NCBI GenBank assembly: GCA_025362955.1
Contig: JANYFB010000216.1
Coordinates: 1 to 32,886, forward strand
Length of the DNA stretch: 32,886 bases
Reading direction: 5' to 3'
From: Akkermansiaceae bacterium
GTDB lineage: Bacteria > Verrucomicrobiota > Verrucomicrobiia > Verrucomicrobiales > Akkermansiaceae
Shown: in pieces, positions 25,438-32,886 of the stretch
How the letters are laid out: the number at the start of each line of letters is the position of its first letter
Numbering within the stretch: position 1 is the first letter of the stretch
Program-made: the position numbers and the translations under genes
Notes under the pieces: model-generated
What the model was told of the DNA's origin: nothing
The model's input: only the letters and a program-made list of their open reading frames with translations
The model's database searches: none

Positions 25438-26210
25438 CGAACCCCTCCCCCGGCCATAGGCGTGATCAGACGTCCTCGCTCCCAGCGGTAAGTCACGCCT
25501 TCCACACGGAAGGCGTTTGCCACAACCGGCGTCACGCCGCAGAACGGAGCTTCATCGAAGAGCCCCACTTTCCAAGCGGTGATTCGCACCGGACGTGGCG
25601 ACCACTCCTCCCGTTTCCCTTCGATGACCACGAAGCGTCCATCCGCTTCGGCATCAAACGTGAAGGGCATCGGTCCAGCGAAATTCCTAGCGGCACGCAG
25701 GTCCGCGAACGGGGAACCCTCGGGCGGTGAATCGGGTTCATCCGTTAGATCAAACGATAGGTCCAGGGTTTCCCTCCCGTCTGGCAGCCACGTCCTGACA
25801 CGCGAATCCGATTGTTCGAGTCTCACCCGCCGGTAGTTGTAGTGCGTCAGCAGATTCCCGGATAGAACCATCCGAGCCTTGTCCGTCTCGCTCCGTAAGA
25901 TTTTCAATCCTCTCAAACGCCGCCCCTTCTCATCCCTCAGCCGCGTGAAAACCCGATAACCCGCTAGGAAAAAGTCCTGCCCGAGGAACCCTGGGAAAGC
26001 CGCAGGCCTCAGTCCTTGGGTCCACACCAGAGCGACCGTGACAAATCCGCAGCCATCGTGGGAATCAATCTCCAGCGGCGCCGGCACCAGCGGTCGCAGG
26101 ACATCTTCCGGAAATGCGAATGAAACCGCCAGCACCCGGTCAAACCATGCGACCACGGGAAACGGATGACGTTTCAACCGGTTCGCTAGATCACTCCATT
26201 TGGAATTCAT
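25434..26210 (-). CDS. DUF2071 (YqjF-like) protein
   Basis: 258 residues of the DUF2071 family, a beta-rich fold related to acetoacetate decarboxylase-like proteins, recognised by VVAWFDRVLAVSFAFPEDVL, LVPAPLEIDSHDGCGFVTVA and GYRVFTRLRDEKGRRLRGL. No reaction is established for the family. Its ATG overlaps the xseA stop (ATGA) and its stop overlaps the methyltransferase start, so it links xseA to the downstream set in one transcript. Confidence 0.72.
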   Translation of the reverse strand: MNSKWSDLANRLKRHPFPVVAWFDRVLAVSFAFPEDVLRPLVPAPLEIDSHDGCGFVTVALVWTQGLRPAAFPGFLGQDFFLAGYRVFTRLRDEKGRRLRGLKILRSETDKARMVLSGNLLTHYNYRRVRLEQSDSRVRTWLPDGRETLDLSFDLTDEPDSPPEGSPFADLRAARNFAGPMPFTFDAEADGRFVVIEGKREEWSPRPVRITAWKVGLFDEAPFCGVTPVVANAFRVEGVTYRWERGRLITPMAGGGVR

Positions 26211-27607
26211 TTAGGATAGACCGGTTGAGACGGGATCCGCGATACTTCATTCACGATGCTAACCGTTTCCCCATCCGCAAATCTGGAGCGGATGAGATCG
26301 CCGGACTTGAGCGATGCCGCCGAGGTTACGACTTTTCCATCCGCTGCGAGGGTGATGGAAAATCCGCGTTGGAAGGCGGATTCCGGTCCCAGCGTCCGCA
26401 GCAGGCCTTTCAAGCGTCCGATGCGCTCGGCCCGCCGAAATAGACCCTCCTTACCCGACCGTTCCAAGCGTTGGTGCAAGCCCGCGACCGTCTCCATGCG
26501 GCGCTCCAAGACGTTCGATGGCTGATAAATCTTGTGCCTGCCCCGCGCATCATTCAGGCGGACGGCCAACGCCTCCAGCGACGAGCGCATGGCCTGGGAA
26601 AGCTGACCACGGGCGGAATCCAGCCGCATCACCGACTCGCGCAGGAGCTTTTCGCCATCGCGTTGCAGGGCACCGCGTCTGAGGGAATCCACCGCGAGTT
26701 GGGAACGCATCAGCCGCTCGCGGGTGACACGGACCATGCGTCTGCGGATTTGCGCGAGACGGGCTAATAACTCCGCTCCGTCCGCCACGGCCAGTTCCGC
26801 AGCGGCGCTCGGCGTGGGTGCCCGGAGATCCGCCACGAAGTCTGCGATGGTGAAGTCGATTTCATGGCCGACGGCGGAAATGATCGGGATCGGGCAGGCC
26901 GCGATGGCCCGGGCGACGACTTCCTCGTTGAAATTCCACAAATCCTCGATGGAGCCACCGCCGCGACCGACGATGAGCACATCGCAGCGCGGATAACCGA
27001 AAGCCTCGGGCCGCCCCATTTTCCCGATGGCCTGGGCGATTTCCAACTCCGCTCCCCTGCCCTGCACCCGCACCGGAAAAAGCACCGGCTGGACCCAAGG
27101 CGCACGACGTGTTAGAACATTCAGGATGTCTTGAAGCGCCGCGCCAGTCCCGGATGTGATGATCCCGATGACCCGTGGAAATGGCGGGATCGCCTGCTTG
27201 CGGTCGGCATCGAAGAGCCCCTCGGCATTTAATTTCCGCTTCAGCGCCTCGAACTTCGCTTGCAAATCTCCGGCCCCTGCACGCTCGGCTTTCTGAACGA
27301 TGATTTGAAGCTGTCCCCGCGCTTCATAGACGCTCGCCTCGGCGAAAACCCGGACCTTCGCGCCGTCCTCCAAGGCGTCCGCACCCTCGCGCTTGCGGGC
27401 GCCGAACATGGCGCACGAAATCTGCGCGCCCTCGTCCTTGAGCGAGAAATACCAGTGCCCGCTGCCTTGTTTTCTGAGATTTGAAACCTCTCCCTCCACC
27501 CAAGTCTCGCCGATCTGGAGTTCCAGCAGATTTTTCATCCGCCGCAGCAACTGCGTGACGGAAAGCGCTTTTTCTTCCGATGTCCGGGGTTTAGAAAACA
27601 AATCCAC
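26207..27607 (-). CDS. xseA: Exodeoxyribonuclease VII large subunit
   Basis: Catalytic subunit of the single-strand specific exonuclease VII. It has an N-terminal OB-fold (LSVTQLLRRMKNLLE, WVEGEVSNLRKQGSGHWYFSLKD). The catalytic domain shows IGIITSGTGAALQDI, DVLIVGRGGGSIEDLWNFNEE and ISAVGHEIDFTIADFVAD. A long coiled-coil region and a short C-terminal domain follow (FQRGFSITLAADGKVV). The ORF track starts at TTG 27622; I prefer the in-frame GTG at 27607, which gives the common short start (V)DLFSKPRTSEEKALSV. The small subunit xseB is not adjacent; instead five unrelated genes follow with overlapping starts and stops. Confidence 0.95.
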   Translation of the reverse strand: MDLFSKPRTSEEKALSVTQLLRRMKNLLELQIGETWVEGEVSNLRKQGSGHWYFSLKDEGAQISCAMFGARKREGADALEDGAKVRVFAEASVYEARGQLQIIVQKAERAGAGDLQAKFEALKRKLNAEGLFDADRKQAIPPFPRVIGIITSGTGAALQDILNVLTRRAPWVQPVLFPVRVQGRGAELEIAQAIGKMGRPEAFGYPRCDVLIVGRGGGSIEDLWNFNEEVVARAIAACPIPIISAVGHEIDFTIADFVADLRAPTPSAAAELAVADGAELLARLAQIRRRMVRVTRERLMRSQLAVDSLRRGALQRDGEKLLRESVMRLDSARGQLSQAMRSSLEALAVRLNDARGRHKIYQPSNVLERRMETVAGLHQRLERSGKEGLFRRAERIGRLKGLLRTLGPESAFQRGFSITLAADGKVVTSAASLKSGDLIRSRFADGETVSIVNEVSRIPSQPVYPK

Positions 27608-27700
27608 ACCGCAATCTGGCAAGTCAGCGGGAGATTTCGAGCGGGAAAAACTAAGAACTCATCGCCGAGTGTTTAAGTCGGCATTCTGTCAGAATCTACC

Positions 27701-27767
27701 AAGGAGTCGCGACATTCCTGTCGCGAGGCAATCCAGTCTTGTGGCGACAGGAATGTCGCCACTCCTT
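27701..27767. repeat. Inverted pair of RAYT-type hairpin repeats (copies A and B)
   Basis: Two 27-base elements face each other: copy A at 27701-27727 and copy B on the minus strand at 27741-27767, with 13 bases between. Each begins AAGGAGT and contains GCGACA-TTCC-TGTCGC as a hairpin with a TTCC loop. Copy B starts within the RAYT stop codon region (TAAGGAGT). Confidence 0.88.
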
Positions 27768-28365
27768 ATTTCACGGCTTGCGCCCGGGGGCCTTCCCACA
27801 GGGTGAAAGTCCCCGCCCGCAGCTTCGCCGGATTCCGGCGGATGTATCTCACCGCGTTCGCGAAATGCCCGCCATCCCGGATCATCGTGTCCCGATAGTT
27901 TTTCTGCCAGATCTTCCCTTGCCCGATCCGCCGGGAGCTTACGCCTTTCCAGACTTGCATCAGTTTCTCAAGCGGTGCCAGCGGCGTGAAAACCAGGTGC
28001 AGGTGGTTCGGCATGATCACCCACGCGTGATGCTCCACCTTCTCTCCCTGGAAACGCATCAACACCGCTTCCATCAGCGCCCGGTTGGCGGGTTCCTTGA
28101 GCAAACAGGACCCAGCTCCCTCATCCAGCCACCCTTCCAACCTCCGGGTGAAGCGCTTGTGATACTCCTTCTCCACTTCCGCCGACCGTGGCTGCGGATG
28201 GACTTTTTGCCAGATTTCACGCTCTTCCTTCCATTGGCGCAGCTTTCCCGCAGGCATCGAGTCGCCGAGCCGGAACGTGACGAACTGCATCGCATCCCCC
28301 TGTTGCCAATGAGGCAGCTCCTGCCCGTGCTTCAGGATCTCGCCGGATGGATTCAGATAGTCCAT
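27766..28365 (-). CDS. REP-associated tyrosine transposase (RAYT, IS200-like fold)
   Basis: Single-strand DNA transposase-like protein of 199 residues that in characterised cases binds and cuts REP hairpins. The HUH motif is seen as H121/H123 in VIMPNHLHLVF, and the catalytic tyrosine is probably Y157 in WQKNYRDTMIRD, followed by the family block AVRYIRRNPAKLRAG. The ORF-track start at 28407 runs through hairpin copy C; the ATG at 28365 is better. It lies just inside copies B and C, which face opposite directions, the arrangement expected of a RAYT with its own substrates. Flanking ends typical of a full insertion sequence are not seen. Confidence 0.9.
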   Translation of the reverse strand: MDYLNPSGEILKHGQELPHWQQGDAMQFVTFRLGDSMPAGKLRQWKEEREIWQKVHPQPRSAEVEKEYHKRFTRRLEGWLDEGAGSCLLKEPANRALMEAVLMRFQGEKVEHHAWVIMPNHLHLVFTPLAPLEKLMQVWKGVSSRRIGQGKIWQKNYRDTMIRDGGHFANAVRYIRRNPAKLRAGTFTLWEGPRAQAVK

Positions 28366-28377
28366 GAGCAGCAAAAT

Positions 28378-28404
28378 AAGGAGTAGCGACATTCCTGTCG
28401 CTAC
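28378..28404 (+). repeat. RAYT-type hairpin repeat (copy C)
   Basis: AAGGAGT followed by a 9-bp hairpin, gtagcgaca/tgtcgctac, with a TTCC loop, 12 bases upstream of the RAYT start codon. It is in the same orientation as copy A and inverted relative to copy B. Confidence 0.88.
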
Positions 28405-28462: not shown

Positions 28463-29014
28463 TTATCGCAGCAGTTCTTGGATTCGATTCGCGATCTCCT
28501 GCGGCAAGTAGGCTCTCGCCGCCGTCACCCGCAGCAGCGGCAGTCCGGCGGCAGAGAACGCGCGGTTCTTGAAGTCGTCGCTCTCCTGGCTGTCCTTTCG
28601 CTTGTGACTCGCATCGTCCAGTTCAATTGCCAGCAACGGCTGCATCGAGCCGCCGTCGCATACCACGAAATCGACGTGCTTGCCGTCCGTCCGGTTGCGT
28701 GCCGCTTGGTTCACGTTCGGTTGTTTCACGTAAAACAGGTCGGACAGCCGGACCTTGGTGATCAGGTAATGCCCCGGCTGCATCACCCCCTTGAGCACGT
28801 GAAAAAACGAAATCTCCGCCGGACTCAGGAACTCATCCCTCAGGCCATAGGGATAGGTAATCTCCTTCTGCGCGGAAACGGGAAGCGCCGGAGGCAAGGC
28901 ACCCGGGCTGGCGGAACTATTGGAAACACCTCCAGTCGCGGACCTCGTTGGCCCGAAACCCAGCATGTTGAGAAGTATCCCTAGGCACCCGCTGTTATTA
29001 GATGAATCGCTCAT
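28463..29014 (-). CDS. DUF2726 domain protein, nuclease-like
   Basis: 183 residues. The first 50 are Ser/Pro/Gly-rich and possibly disordered. The C-terminal part follows the DUF2726 pattern: LSPAEISFFHVLKGV, ITKVRLSDLF, KHVDFVVCDGGSMQPLLAIELDDASHKRKDS and LPLLRVTAARAY. The D...ELD arrangement is that of PD-(D/E)XK-type nucleases, though activity is not shown for the family. The ORF-track start at 29068 is replaced by the ATG at 29014 (MSDSSNNSGCLG). It lies between the RAYT unit and the hypothetical at 29135. Confidence 0.78.
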   Translation of the reverse strand: MSDSSNNSGCLGILLNMLGFGPTRSATGGVSNSSASPGALPPALPVSAQKEITYPYGLRDEFLSPAEISFFHVLKGVMQPGHYLITKVRLSDLFYVKQPNVNQAARNRTDGKHVDFVVCDGGSMQPLLAIELDDASHKRKDSQESDDFKNRAFSAAGLPLLRVTAARAYLPQEIANRIQELLR

Positions 29015-29134
29015 GTTTCTGTGATGGAAATGTGATAGATCTCTGCCGGTGGCAATCCGTATCGCCAATGAACCGCCCTGTAGCGTCGCTCTATGAGCGT
29101 CGATGCCCAGGAGATGTCAATCAGGACTCCGCAA

Positions 29135-29860
29135 CTAACGAACCCACTCCCAGAACACGCCCCCATCCTCTCCCGAGTATAGATTCGCCGCAGTTGTCGT
29201 GTGGTGGCAAAGGTAGGCCCACGGCACGGGTTCCTGTTTGTCGATGATTAGAACTTCGAGCGATGCGTGGACCTGTTCGCGCCATGTGTGATCACCCACA
29301 AGCCATTCGAGTAGAAACCGGAATGGGGTGGGATCAGAAGGAACTTCGGGCGCGAGTCTCGCGAGCAATCTCGGCTTGCCAGACCGTTTCACCATCGCGC
29401 GGAGATGCTCGCGGTCCTCGGCCACCGGAGCGACGATGATTTCAGGAGGCTTCCTCAACACGATTCCAGACGGCGTGATGGTGGTTCGATCAAGCAAGTA
29501 TTTCGGAATGGTTGGAGGCGGAAGTTTCTCCGTCTCGATCCCCAGCAGCTTGTTCCCCCACAATTGGATTCCCTGAACCGTGTTGATAATTGCGGTGTGA
29601 CGCCCGAGTTCCACCCCGTCGCGAAAGAGAATGAGCGTGGGAAACGCCCGGATCTGCCGCCGGATCCAATCGTCATCCGTTCCCGGCGTCTCCACACTGC
29701 TGTAGGAACGGAACGTCCACCCGGCGGCGGCCGCCGCTTCCATGGCGGCACGAAACAAGTAACCATAAATGATCCCATCCGCTCCGTCGCGCAGTGGCCA
29801 TGATAGATCGAAGTGTTCGAGGAAGACTCCGGGCGTCGTTTCCGGGCGTGGGTGGGTCAT
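29135..29860 (-). CDS. Hypothetical protein with thioredoxin-fold-like N-terminus
   Basis: 241 residues, no signal peptide. Residues about 45-105 read like a thioredoxin fold, with an IRAFPTLILFRDGVELGRH segment where thioredoxins have the cis-proline strand and GxxxxR, but there is no CxxC motif, so it would not be a redox enzyme. The C-terminal half (about 110-241) matches nothing I know; its end, TTTAANLYSGEDGGVFWEWV, is partly duplicated at 28421. About 120 bases separate it from the DUF2726 gene, with no feature seen in them. Confidence 0.6.
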   Translation of the reverse strand: MTHPRPETTPGVFLEHFDLSWPLRDGADGIIYGYLFRAAMEAAAAAGWTFRSYSSVETPGTDDDWIRRQIRAFPTLILFRDGVELGRHTAIINTVQGIQLWGNKLLGIETEKLPPPTIPKYLLDRTTITPSGIVLRKPPEIIVAPVAEDREHLRAMVKRSGKPRLLARLAPEVPSDPTPFRFLLEWLVGDHTWREQVHASLEVLIIDKQEPVPWAYLCHHTTTAANLYSGEDGGVFWEWVR

Positions 29861-29886
29861 GAAGCTTTGAGTAATCAGGTGTCTTG

Positions 29887-29913
29887 ATAGGGATTCGACA
29901 TTCCTAAGACTAC
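29887..29913 (+). repeat. Possible decayed hairpin repeat (copy D)
   Basis: The sequence CGACATTCCT followed by CTACC at the right distance matches copy C at roughly three of four positions, but the right arm is lost (AAGA in place of GTCG), so no hairpin forms. It overlaps the stop codon of the DUF4062-like gene. Confidence 0.35.
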
Positions 29914-30995
29914 CGCTTGTCCCGCAGCACCATGTTGTAAACTTTCTCCAAGTCGGTTGAAGACAGTTCCTTGAGGGATGCGAACGGTTTCATCTTCAGG
30001 CGTCTGGCAACTTCAGGATAATATGCTTCCTTTGTGACCCCCATGGTTCTCATGCCTGCCATGATGGCTCCAATTAGAGAAGATGAATGGATCGCTGGAG
30101 ATTTTCTCTTTGCCTTGCGCACCAGCTTGGCTTTCTCGACCAAATACCAGTCCTTAACAAGCGGCATTTGTTCGACATGCAACGCATCATAGCGGGGAAC
30201 TTCAAATCGATTTTTTAACCGGGATCTCCAGCCTTTGATGCAGGTTGCGTATGGCTTTTTTTCTATCTCCTCGGAAAGCTTGGCCAATTCATCAGTCCAA
30301 TCCAAAACCCGCTTTTGATCTGCCGGCAAAATATGGTCGGGATGCCGCTGTATCGTGATTTCCGGCTTCTTCGGCAGGTTGATATTGAAAACATTTTTGT
30401 CGCCTGCGGACTGAATATTGCCATCTCCTTTCGCCTTCTGATTGATGCTCTTTTTACCGACCGTCTTCTTCGGCGCAGCGATTTTCGCCAGGATGTCGCG
30501 CACAGCAAGGTCGAGATGGATTTCTAAAAGCTTTCTGAATTCGTGCCGGCTTTTGAATGCGAAGCTCAATCCCGTATCTTTCATTTTGTCGCGGAATGCT
30601 TCGAGCTTTTTCATTTGTTCGAAGTCAGTCACAATGTGGGGAGCCTCAAGATTTGAGAAATAAGACATCACCCGGATACCTCGGGCCATTCCTCGTGTTA
30701 TCTCTTCCACGGTGCCTGACTCTGCCAAACCTGTTGGCGTTCCAAGGCGGGTCCAAAGGATGGCGACAAGAATTTGAGATTCATCGATCATCTGTCGGTT
30801 AATTGCAGCCTGGCCGCGTTCATCCATAGTGGGAGCGCAGTCAGTGCTCCAATGCCGCGCTTTTATATGCCATCCAGTGGAATCCTCATGCCGTTGGTTC
30901 CACGCGTCGATCACCTCGCGAGCAATAACGATTTCTCTCTCCACGTCACCTGGGCAACAGATGGTTACGTTCAGTATTTTCAATGTTTTGGTCAT
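29910..30995 (-). CDS. DUF4062-type protein, possible defence effector
   Basis: 361 residues. The first 165 look like a DUF4062 domain, a TIR/nucleoside-deoxyribosyltransferase-like fold often at the front of antiphage NTPases: VTICCPGDVEREIVIAREVI, then SQILVAILWTRLGTPTG, ESGTVEEITRG and VMSYFSNLEAP. A linker follows with GDGNIQSAGDKNVFNINL, a motif I know from defence and phage proteins. The C-terminal part (PYATCIKGWRSRLKNRFEVP and on) is helical and basic, faintly like phage ORF6C domains. No NTPase follows, unlike typical fusions. The ORF-track start at 31028 is replaced by the ATG at 30995, which overlaps the stop of a small upstream ORF (ATGA). The gene is visibly richer in A and T than the left side of the window. 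Confidence 0.65.
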   Translation of the reverse strand: MTKTLKILNVTICCPGDVEREIVIAREVIDAWNQRHEDSTGWHIKARHWSTDCAPTMDERGQAAINRQMIDESQILVAILWTRLGTPTGLAESGTVEEITRGMARGIRVMSYFSNLEAPHIVTDFEQMKKLEAFRDKMKDTGLSFAFKSRHEFRKLLEIHLDLAVRDILAKIAAPKKTVGKKSINQKAKGDGNIQSAGDKNVFNINLPKKPEITIQRHPDHILPADQKRVLDWTDELAKLSEEIEKKPYATCIKGWRSRLKNRFEVPRYDALHVEQMPLVKDWYLVEKAKLVRKAKRKSPAIHSSSLIGAIMAGMRTMGVTKEAYYPEVARRLKMKPFASLKELSSTDLEKVYNMVLRDKR

Positions 30996-31075
30996 AGCGC
31001 CGACGATCCTAGCATGGAAAATCCCCAAAGTGCCAGAATGGGCGACAAATTAGATTTTGGCAGTCCTACATCCAT
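30992..31075 (-). CDS. Small ORF (27 aa) coupled to the DUF4062-type gene
   Basis: Not in the ORF track. An ATG at 31075 follows AAGGAG at 5-6 bases, the best Shine-Dalgarno site I saw in the window. The peptide begins MDVGLPKSNL and its second half is hydrophobic (SPILALWGFSMLGSSAL), like a short membrane helix. Its TGA overlaps the ATG of the next gene as ATGA. It could be a small membrane partner, or a leader that sets translation of the DUF4062 protein. Upstream DNA is AT-rich with a possible -10 TATCCT. Confidence 0.55.
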   Translation of the reverse strand: MDVGLPKSNLSPILALWGFSMLGSSAL

Positions 31076-31218
31076 CGTAACTCCTTAAATTTTCGCTATT
31101 TAGGATAGGCAATTATTTTTAATCTGAACGGCTGATTGTGCACATTCATTGCTAGAAGTCTCCCTTTACTAACGAAATTTATTCTAGGGTGGGGTCGAAG
31201 AAGCGCTAGGCGCGAGGT

Positions 31219-32886
31219 TCAGTTCGGCTTCGGAATAGGCATCCGCGGCGGGGCGGTGGCCCACATAAGCTCAATCTCTTCCGGCGTTAGCCCGTAGGCT
31301 TCGTTGACGAGGTCGCTAAGTTCACGCTCCAGCTTCAGGGCCTCGGCGGCGAGGGCGCGGGCGGGTTCGATGGTGCGGGTGTATTCCTCGCGGAGGGCTT
31401 GCAGACCGGCGGCGGTAAGCGGGAGTTTTTTGCCCCGGATGTGCTTCACTTCGGCAATGAAGCTGTCGAGGTCGAGGGCGGTCAGGTTCTGGAGTTTGTT
31501 GGTCGGCTTTTCGATGGAGTATTCAACGCGCAGCCAGTCTAGAATCGTGTGTTTCGTTTTTTGCTGGCCGACTTGTATTTCGATCAGGCGGCGGGCGGCA
31601 TTTTCAGCTTGTCTCCTAGTTGCGGCTGTGGGTTCTGCTATGGGCAGTTCGGTCATTTTGAATGCTACAGGAGACAGCGCCTCATCTTTCATGTGCGGAA
31701 GGTAGCGCCAGTTGTGCCACCACAGTAGCGGTGAGTTCAGAACGGCTAGCAGATAAAGATCATCCGTGCTCAGTAAGAAAGTTTTGTTATTGCCATGGTT
31801 CCCCGCAGTATCCAGCGAGTAGGAGGGATGAAACTGGATCTCCTGGTAAATAATCTTGGGTTTCTCGAAGTCATCCCAAAAGGCGCATGAACTCAACTCC
31901 CACCAATGCCTTACCTGATTCTTTCGAGCGCGAAGCTGCGCCTCGTAAGGCTTCATGTGCGCGTGGATGCTGGGATAAGTTTTTTGGAACAACGCCTCAG
32001 CCGCCACACCATCCAATCCCTCACCGGACCAAGGCCATGTGAAATTGTTGCTCGACTTCATTACGATCATGAATTGACCGCTTTGCTCGGTATGCCAGCG
32101 CCCAAGGTCCTGCCCCCGGAAGTACGGACGGATAATCTCTGCACAGTTTGGGTCTGCTTTCACGACTTCCCCATGTTTTTGCGCGTCCAGAAGGAAAGCA
32201 TCATTGAAACCGGTCATTGTTCCCCGTTTCGGTGCTATTCCGAGAAACTCTCCCAGAGTTTTCCGATTTGAGCTGATCTTTTGATAAAGCTGGCTGACTT
32301 TGGGGGACTCGAGTTGCCAGTCTTGGACGCCAAGCTGCTGCAATTCGATTTCCGCGCCTTCAGTCTCGATTTGCACACTAAGATCGTTAACGCGAAGCTG
32401 TTCACGCGGGATCGTGCACAGCCGGGCAGTTTTGGGTTTCTCGTTACTCGTTGGCTTTTCGGCGACGATGATGCAGGGAAACACATCCGCATCTTCGAAG
32501 ATCTGTTTGGCATGGCCGAAATCGACAACCGACTTGATCCACGATTTCTCACTGAAGAAGCGGCGCAGCGGCTCGCCATAACCTGCCTTCATCCATTTGT
32601 TAGTGACGATGTAGGACATCAATCCACCGGGTTTCAGCAGGCGCACGCCGAGTTCGTAGAAATAGACGTAGAGGTCGGCCATGCCGTGGAAGCTCTGATA
32701 GTTCGCCTGCATCCATGGCTTGTAGGGAGTTAGAAGTTCCTGCCTAACATACGGCGGATTTCCCACCACGACATCGAAGCCGCCTTCCACGAAGACTTCG
32801 GGAAACGCGGCTTGCCAGTCGAAGGCTTTCGGATGGACAGCGGGATCGCTGACGACGCTGTTTCCCTCGCGGATGGTGTGATCCAG
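31219..32886 (-). CDS. Eco57I-like restriction-modification methyltransferase, 5' end missing
   Basis: N6-adenine methyltransferase region of a type IIG (or related) restriction-modification protein. The frame is open to the window edge, so the N-terminus, where a nuclease domain would sit, is not seen; the ORF-track start at 32790 is an internal GTG. Seen: the catalytic motif VVVGNPPYVRQE, LLKPGGLMSYIVTNKWMKAGYG, FEDADVFPCIIVAEK, then a TaqI-like target-recognition part (FLGIAPKRGTMTGFNDAFLL, IIRPYFRGQDLGRW, ILNSPLLWW-type segment) and a helical C-terminus. BREX PglX enzymes share this layout, so the system type cannot be fixed without the neighbours. About 140 bases separate its stop from the small ORF downstream. 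Confidence 0.88.
   Translation of the reverse strand: MDHTIREGNSVVSDPAVHPKAFDWQAAFPEVFVEGGFDVVVGNPPYVRQELLTPYKPWMQANYQSFHGMADLYVYFYELGVRLLKPGGLMSYIVTNKWMKAGYGEPLRRFFSEKSWIKSVVDFGHAKQIFEDADVFPCIIVAEKPTSNEKPKTARLCTIPREQLRVNDLSVQIETEGAEIELQQLGVQDWQLESPKVSQLYQKISSNRKTLGEFLGIAPKRGTMTGFNDAFLLDAQKHGEVVKADPNCAEIIRPYFRGQDLGRWHTEQSGQFMIVMKSSNNFTWPWSGEGLDGVAAEALFQKTYPSIHAHMKPYEAQLRARKNQVRHWWELSSCAFWDDFEKPKIIYQEIQFHPSYSLDTAGNHGNNKTFLLSTDDLYLLAVLNSPLLWWHNWRYLPHMKDEALSPVAFKMTELPIAEPTAATRRQAENAARRLIEIQVGQQKTKHTILDWLRVEYSIEKPTNKLQNLTALDLDSFIAEVKHIRGKKLPLTAAGLQALREEYTRTIEPARALAAEALKLERELSDLVNEAYGLTPEEIELMWATAPPRMPIPKPN

Follow-up and report, generated by a model that had tools for sequence, protein, structure and literature searches.

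The window, the whole 32,886-nucleotide stretch of DNA that was analysed, comes from the 3.92 Mb draft genome of an Akkermansiaceae bacterium and carries a RAYT gene between xseA and a DUF2726 nuclease-like gene, with a hairpin repeat (REP) on one side of it and an inverted pair of REPs on the other. The features, with the putative GGAG guides discussed below, are as follows.

26207-27622, xseA, one neighbour of the RAYT gene
27701..27768, unstranded, REPIN: inverted doublet of copies A and B, heads outward
27701..27726, plus strand, REP copy A: AAGGAG and the hairpin TCGCGACA-TTCC-TGTCGCGA; putative guide GGAG at 27703-27706
27742..27768, minus strand, REP copy B: TAAGGAG and the hairpin TGGCGACA-TTCC-TGTCGCCA; putative guide GGAG at 27762-27765
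27766..28365, minus strand, RAYT, a TnpA_REP-like HuH-Y1 protein of 199 aa (start ATG at 28365, stop TAA at 27766-27768), assigned from profiles, motifs, an AlphaFold (AF2) model and the match to 4er8
28378..28403, plus strand, REP copy C, upstream of the RAYT start: AAGGAG and the hairpin TAGCGACA-TTCC-TGTCGCTA; putative guide GGAG at 28380-28383
28463-29014, DUF2726 nuclease-like gene, the other neighbour

The motifs PNHLH, WQKNYRDTMIR and YIRRNP are all intact in the RAYT. The HuH motif is NHLH at residues 120-123 and the single catalytic Tyr is Y174, as in the HUH fold, and YIRRNP (Y---NP) together with WQKNYRDT (W-Q motif) forms the class 2 Y1 signature. The protein matches Pfam Y1_Tnp just over the cut-off and scores 65.2 bits against NCBIfam REP_Tyr_transpos (NF047646), below the curated cut-off of 80. 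Among solved structures, a profile built from 48 relatives matches 4er8, in which E. coli TnpA_REP is bound to a REP, most closely (E 1.7e-8), and a fold search with the AF2 model (pLDDT 92.9) again places the REP hairpin-bound 4er8 at the top (E 2e-6, probability 1). The identification of this open reading frame as a RAYT, made earlier from the letters of the DNA, is thus borne out by profile and by fold. We found no tnpB family among the families in the neighbouring genes scanned and no conserved synteny within ±1.5 kb; over that span, orthologues elsewhere lie off the xseA/DUF2726 locus. The genes at 28463-32790 include a partial type IIG restriction-methyltransferase at the contig end and one protein with a match to the candidate defence family PDC-S60.

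Exactly three copies of the 16-base core GCGACATTCCTGTCGC lie in the window, at 27709-27724 (+), 27744-27759 (-) and 28386-28401 (+). Shuffled sequence gives three core matches only when three mismatches are allowed, and then in 4 of 100 shuffles, so that three exact 16-mers are not a product of chance. The shared unit, AAGGAG-TN-GCGACA-TTCC-TGTCGC-N'A, has a perfect 8-bp stem and a 4-nt loop with no bulge. It had been described as 27 bases long, which holds for copies B and C when the T of TAAGGAG is counted; the unit common to all three is 26. At the variable position N/N' is C/G in copy A, G/C in B and A/T in C, the three complementary pair types reported at the outset, and the pair outward of it is T-A in every copy. 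Copies B and C face in opposite directions around the gene and the TAA of the RAYT forms the first three bases of B, both as first described; the GGAG heads of B and C point towards the gene. Most orthologues are likewise flanked by REPs in inverted orientation.

Pairing is kept across the genome and the genus

The genome that holds the window was searched with TAAGGAG, seven free positions, ATTCCT and the rest free, with up to two mismatches, a pattern that constrains a single inner pair (A-T) and lets seven pairs vary freely. Among the 55 matches to head and loop, 18 keep 6-7 of the 7 pairs, two keep 5 and the rest keep 4 or fewer. The 20 copies with at least 5 pairs, 17 of them distinct, formed the covariation set. 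In these 20, N-N' is G-C in 12, A-T in 5, C-G in 2 and broken in 1, and the fourth pair is G-C in 10, C-G in 9 and broken in 1. Over the 17 distinct sequences, chosen by a cut at five pairs that itself favours pairing, 91.9% of cells pair vs 76.8% after shuffling, changes on both sides affect 18 cells vs 5.4, and covariation scores 0.369 vs 0.118 ± 0.028 (reached in 0 of 500 shuffles); no slid register comes close. Because of that cut, more weight goes to the test across the genus, where a pattern that leaves five positions free per arm finds copies in 22 of 31 genomes, against about 5 in total for the reversed pattern used as a control. Among the matches listed there are 71 distinct arm combinations, of which 83.9% of pairs are Watson-Crick, compared with 47.5 ± 2.0% (maximum 54.4) in 2000 shuffles that take no account of relatedness. 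All four Watson-Crick types occur at each of the three outer pairs; with pair types and genomes so varied, a single inherited change is an insufficient explanation.

The sequence-only reading had treated the three copies in the window as direct evidence that the hairpin is maintained, a stronger wording than three copies can support, and had proposed collecting all copies in the genome and testing covariation. That collection upholds the pairing (0.369 vs 0.118): the copies do not break it as often as they keep it, N-N' being Watson-Crick in 19 of 20. Since pairing of about 92% in the genome and 84% across the genus exceeds that of shuffles, the hairpin is maintained, through changes on both arms. 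We regard the stem covariation as strong sequence evidence that RAYT substrates are read as folded hairpins in which the stem sequence is free and the foot fixed. Such covariation would be expected of a DNA hairpin and of an RNA hairpin alike.

An unlikely alternative is that pairing is kept by mutation and not by selection, through quasi-palindrome correction or spread from a few perfect founders. Half-changed copies are indeed few, and the near-identical sets in the genome (A with contig C9, B with C157, C with C330) suggest founders; against this, there are imperfect copies and G.T intermediates (8 of 71 have TG/GT at pair 3), and the stem changes often, the head and loop seldom. This last contrast rests mainly on orthologous RAYT loci, because our searches fixed the head and loop.

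The REPs are dispersed, numbering about 20 in the window's genome and reaching about 230 in one congener (G409, as an AAGGAG..TCCTGT element), and occur as singles and as inverted doublets. There are five doublet sites in the genome, and the A+B-type arrangement recurs on C106, C144, C156 and C265. This is what canonical REPs look like, a dispersed multi-copy palindrome often in inverted doublets. At the tpiA stop codon a REP follows directly in the window's genome and in two congeners, a doublet lies about 9 bases on in two others, an array in one (L332) and none in most (loci with REP variation: L308, L311, L312, L324, L325, L332). A second REP core (GGGACA-TTCC-TGTCCC), which shares this head, occurs in the window's genome on C116, C132, C144, C156, C181 and C265. 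We found no RAYT beside these copies in the assembly; the core is possibly a substrate of the window RAYT or a leftover of a lost one.

REPs begin at the stop codons of the RAYT itself, of tpiA and of a 290-aa ORF, which would fit hairpins kept for a role in RNA, such as protection of mRNA 3' ends or attenuation of the RAYT message, with the RAYT link a matter of origin only. In the same direction, the RAYT stop TA[AG] runs directly into GGA[GC] in 14 of 22 RAYTs of the clade (the window and 21 orthologues). We consider this role improbable as the main explanation: the GGAG head and the loop are conserved across RAYT orthologues with completely different stems, the class of head tracks the RAYT lineage, we saw no U-run after the window's three stems, and Rfam holds no family for the hairpins (two sub-threshold miRNA-type matches only, which we take as chance). 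Some RAYTs of the GTAG class (L105, L107, L118, L128) have their stop TAG within GTAG.

That the locus is an ordinary insertion sequence of the IS200 kind, or a relative flanked by TIRs (TIRYT), is very improbable although IS200/IS605 profiles match the RAYT, since the window RAYT is present once in its genome with paralogues 36-39% identical and no near-identical multiple copies, carries the Y---NP motif of class 2, and is accompanied by dispersed hairpins, not by TIRs confined to the gene.

The locus is thus very probably a REPtron, that is, a single-copy domesticated HuH nuclease of the IS200/IS605 type (the RAYT) with its own REP hairpins at both ends and a GG[AG]G guide. As in the TnpA_REP proteins of E. 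coli, Stenotrophomonas and Marinomonas, the RAYT would bind the REP as a folded single strand, recognising both the hairpin and its GGAG foot. This foot would guide the choice of the cleavage dinucleotide, CT (A3G4) or CC (G2G4), where the A3G4 choice of CT follows the cross-pairing model (PMC8266576). Y174 would then cut and rejoin REP DNA, and this cutting and rejoining may copy or move REPINs.

The GGAG foot and residue 101

Within the same family, 67 of 145 genomes carry a RAYT of this sort. Those 52-75% identical to the window's mostly have stems of their own, the same foot and similar loops: the GGAG head and the pyrimidine-rich TTCC loop are retained as the stem drifts. The foot common among relatives is GGAG or GGGG beside the stem. 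TAAGGAG is the form of the window's subclade, and the bases before GGAG vary (TAAGGAG, ATGGAG, ACGGAG, GGGGAG). AAGGAG had been put forward as the possible guide; its GGAG (or GGGG) part is conserved in relatives and, because the preceding AA is not general, the candidate is GGAG and not AAGGAG. By analogy with the studied TnpA_REP proteins, GGAG would act as the guide of cleavage. The canonical GT[AG]G foot is not found here: GGAG takes its place in each of the three copies and throughout the clade. We also considered pairing of the loop with the guide (TTCC/CTCC complementing GGAG) and rejected it, since T[CT]C-type loops are equally common in GT-class REPs and loops vary within one genome (CTCA and CTTT in L040). 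The paralogue on C46 of the window's genome (L032, 39% identical) has its own hairpins, ACAGGCA-TTCC-TGCCTGT, and a foot that is neither GG nor GT.

In PMC6006769, W94, Q95, E100, H101 and R104 of E. coli TnpA_REP are discussed as taking part in the GTAG interaction. In the alignment with 4er8, the equivalent of H101 is the T of WQKNYRDT in the window RAYT (numbering via the motif). We counted residue and guide together in 97 REPtrons with a clear foot, by automatic foot calls that leave ambiguous ones out, and found GG with R in 44, GG with T in 24, GT with H in 24, GT with R in 5 and GG with H in 0; the residue is R or T in all 68 GG guides and H in 24 of 29 GT guides. On the tree, guide and residue 101 change three times each, and only a single pair of these changes is both supported and independent. 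One place where guide and residue change together is L130/L134 (GT, H) beside L129/L132/L135 (GG, R). With about three changes and one such pair, the link is an association between clades; the tree rules out many independent events, and we treat the association as a lead and not as a proven code. Neither does R alone force GG, given that L219, L245, L249, L261 and L267 (mostly Planctomycetota) pair R with GTAG/GTGG. L063, with R at this position, has a GTGG-like foot.

We tentatively propose, as a possibility that falls somewhat short of even, a readable guide code in which the residue equivalent to H101, touching the foot tetranucleotide, sets GT[AG]G (H) or GG[AG]G (R/T), and in which the GGAG class, widespread in Verrucomicrobiota, is a second major REP superfamily missed by GT[AG]G searches. 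If so, the protein would predict the guide class of a REPtron, and one substitution could perhaps switch it. The REP surveys consulted define REPs by GT[AG]G (PMC3686654, PMC6006769, PMC3733652), and "GGAG" is absent from the main text wherever we looked for it; PMC6006769 gives atypical feet for subclass 2.6 and class 3 in its supplement. Because these surveys search for GT[AG]G feet, the GG[AG]G class would be invisible to them. In the portions of the REP and RAYT literature searched, nothing describes GG[AG]G guides in combination with an R or a T in the position of residue 101. With RAYTs of the two guide classes differing at a residue known to contact the guide, natural pairs make the choice of REP and of cleavage site by TnpA_REP directly testable.

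RAYTs inside host genes

Many RAYTs of the same family are embedded in the reading frames of other genes, where the REP hairpins are translated into linkers. Host sequence is present on both sides in 42 of the 44 large open frames examined (L145-L188). The hosts, confirmed by Pfam for representatives of each and assigned from flanks for the others, are leucyl-tRNA synthetase (LeuRS, 14), MetH (10), IspG (7), a DUF5107-TPR protein (4), HsdR (3), adenosine deaminase (2) and CarB (2); one HsdR case is in the window's own genome (C39, L145:2966-6157). The insertions fall in the editing domain of LeuRS (14) and the activation domain of MetH (10). LeuRS is single copy in nearly all genomes of the family (138 of 145 with a match) and is the only copy found in those that carry a RAYT. 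Its open frames are mostly 850-910 aa without a RAYT and 1039-1175 aa (one 2175) with one. Within one genus the RAYT is present or absent at the same LeuRS site (junctions L298-L307), which holds either about 14 residues (such as QPTDDSDWQGYTAY) or about 225 residues of RAYT and linkers, and in L302 a short insert without a RAYT. The REP-coded linkers include GVSPT, TGVPPV and ETPALP. In 13 LeuRS-RAYT chimeras HVGH and KMSKS of LeuRS and NHVH, WQ and Y..NP of the RAYT are invariant, and a chimera model made with 13 sequences has a mean pLDDT of 54.9, too low to inform on LeuRS, with the RAYT part mostly at 70-86. REPs that lie in frame with no RAYT have been described before (PMC3733652); our literature search found no description of RAYTs nested in frame in host genes. 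These in-gene RAYTs are possibly more surprising than the REPtron itself.

Comparison with known REPtrons

The kind of system is already known, and the departure is the GG[AG]G guide in place of GT[AG]G. Like the E. coli TnpA_REP/REP REPtron (4er8; placed in class 2.2 by Quentin et al. 2018, PMC6006769), the window's has HuH with a single Tyr, Y---NP and WQ, inverted flanking REPs and dispersed REP doublets. It differs in its guide (GGAG, not GTAG), in residue 101 (T, not H) and in a perfect 8-bp stem with a 4-nt loop and no bulge, and the two proteins are 15% identical over the structural alignment. The Stenotrophomonas maltophilia Sm REPtron (group 3, PMC8266576) shares an 8-bp perfect palindrome adjoining the tetranucleotide. 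Its loop, whose sequence matters (PMC8266576), has 3 nt and reads GCT vs TTCC/CTCC here, and its guide is GTAG. Quentin subclass 2.6 (Bacteroidetes), with "atypical secondary structures", resembles the window's system in NH[LIV]H, WQ and non-GT[AG]G feet, and differs in its Y motif, YIH[QN]NP vs YIRRNP. Two Bacteroidota RAYTs (L240, L243) fall within our GG class. The GTAG/GTGG REPs of Opitutus terrae (PMC3733652) come from the same phylum, Verrucomicrobiota, and share REP dimers and intragenic REPs with the window's system; they differ in the GT[AG]G guide, which in the present sample goes mostly with H at residue 101.
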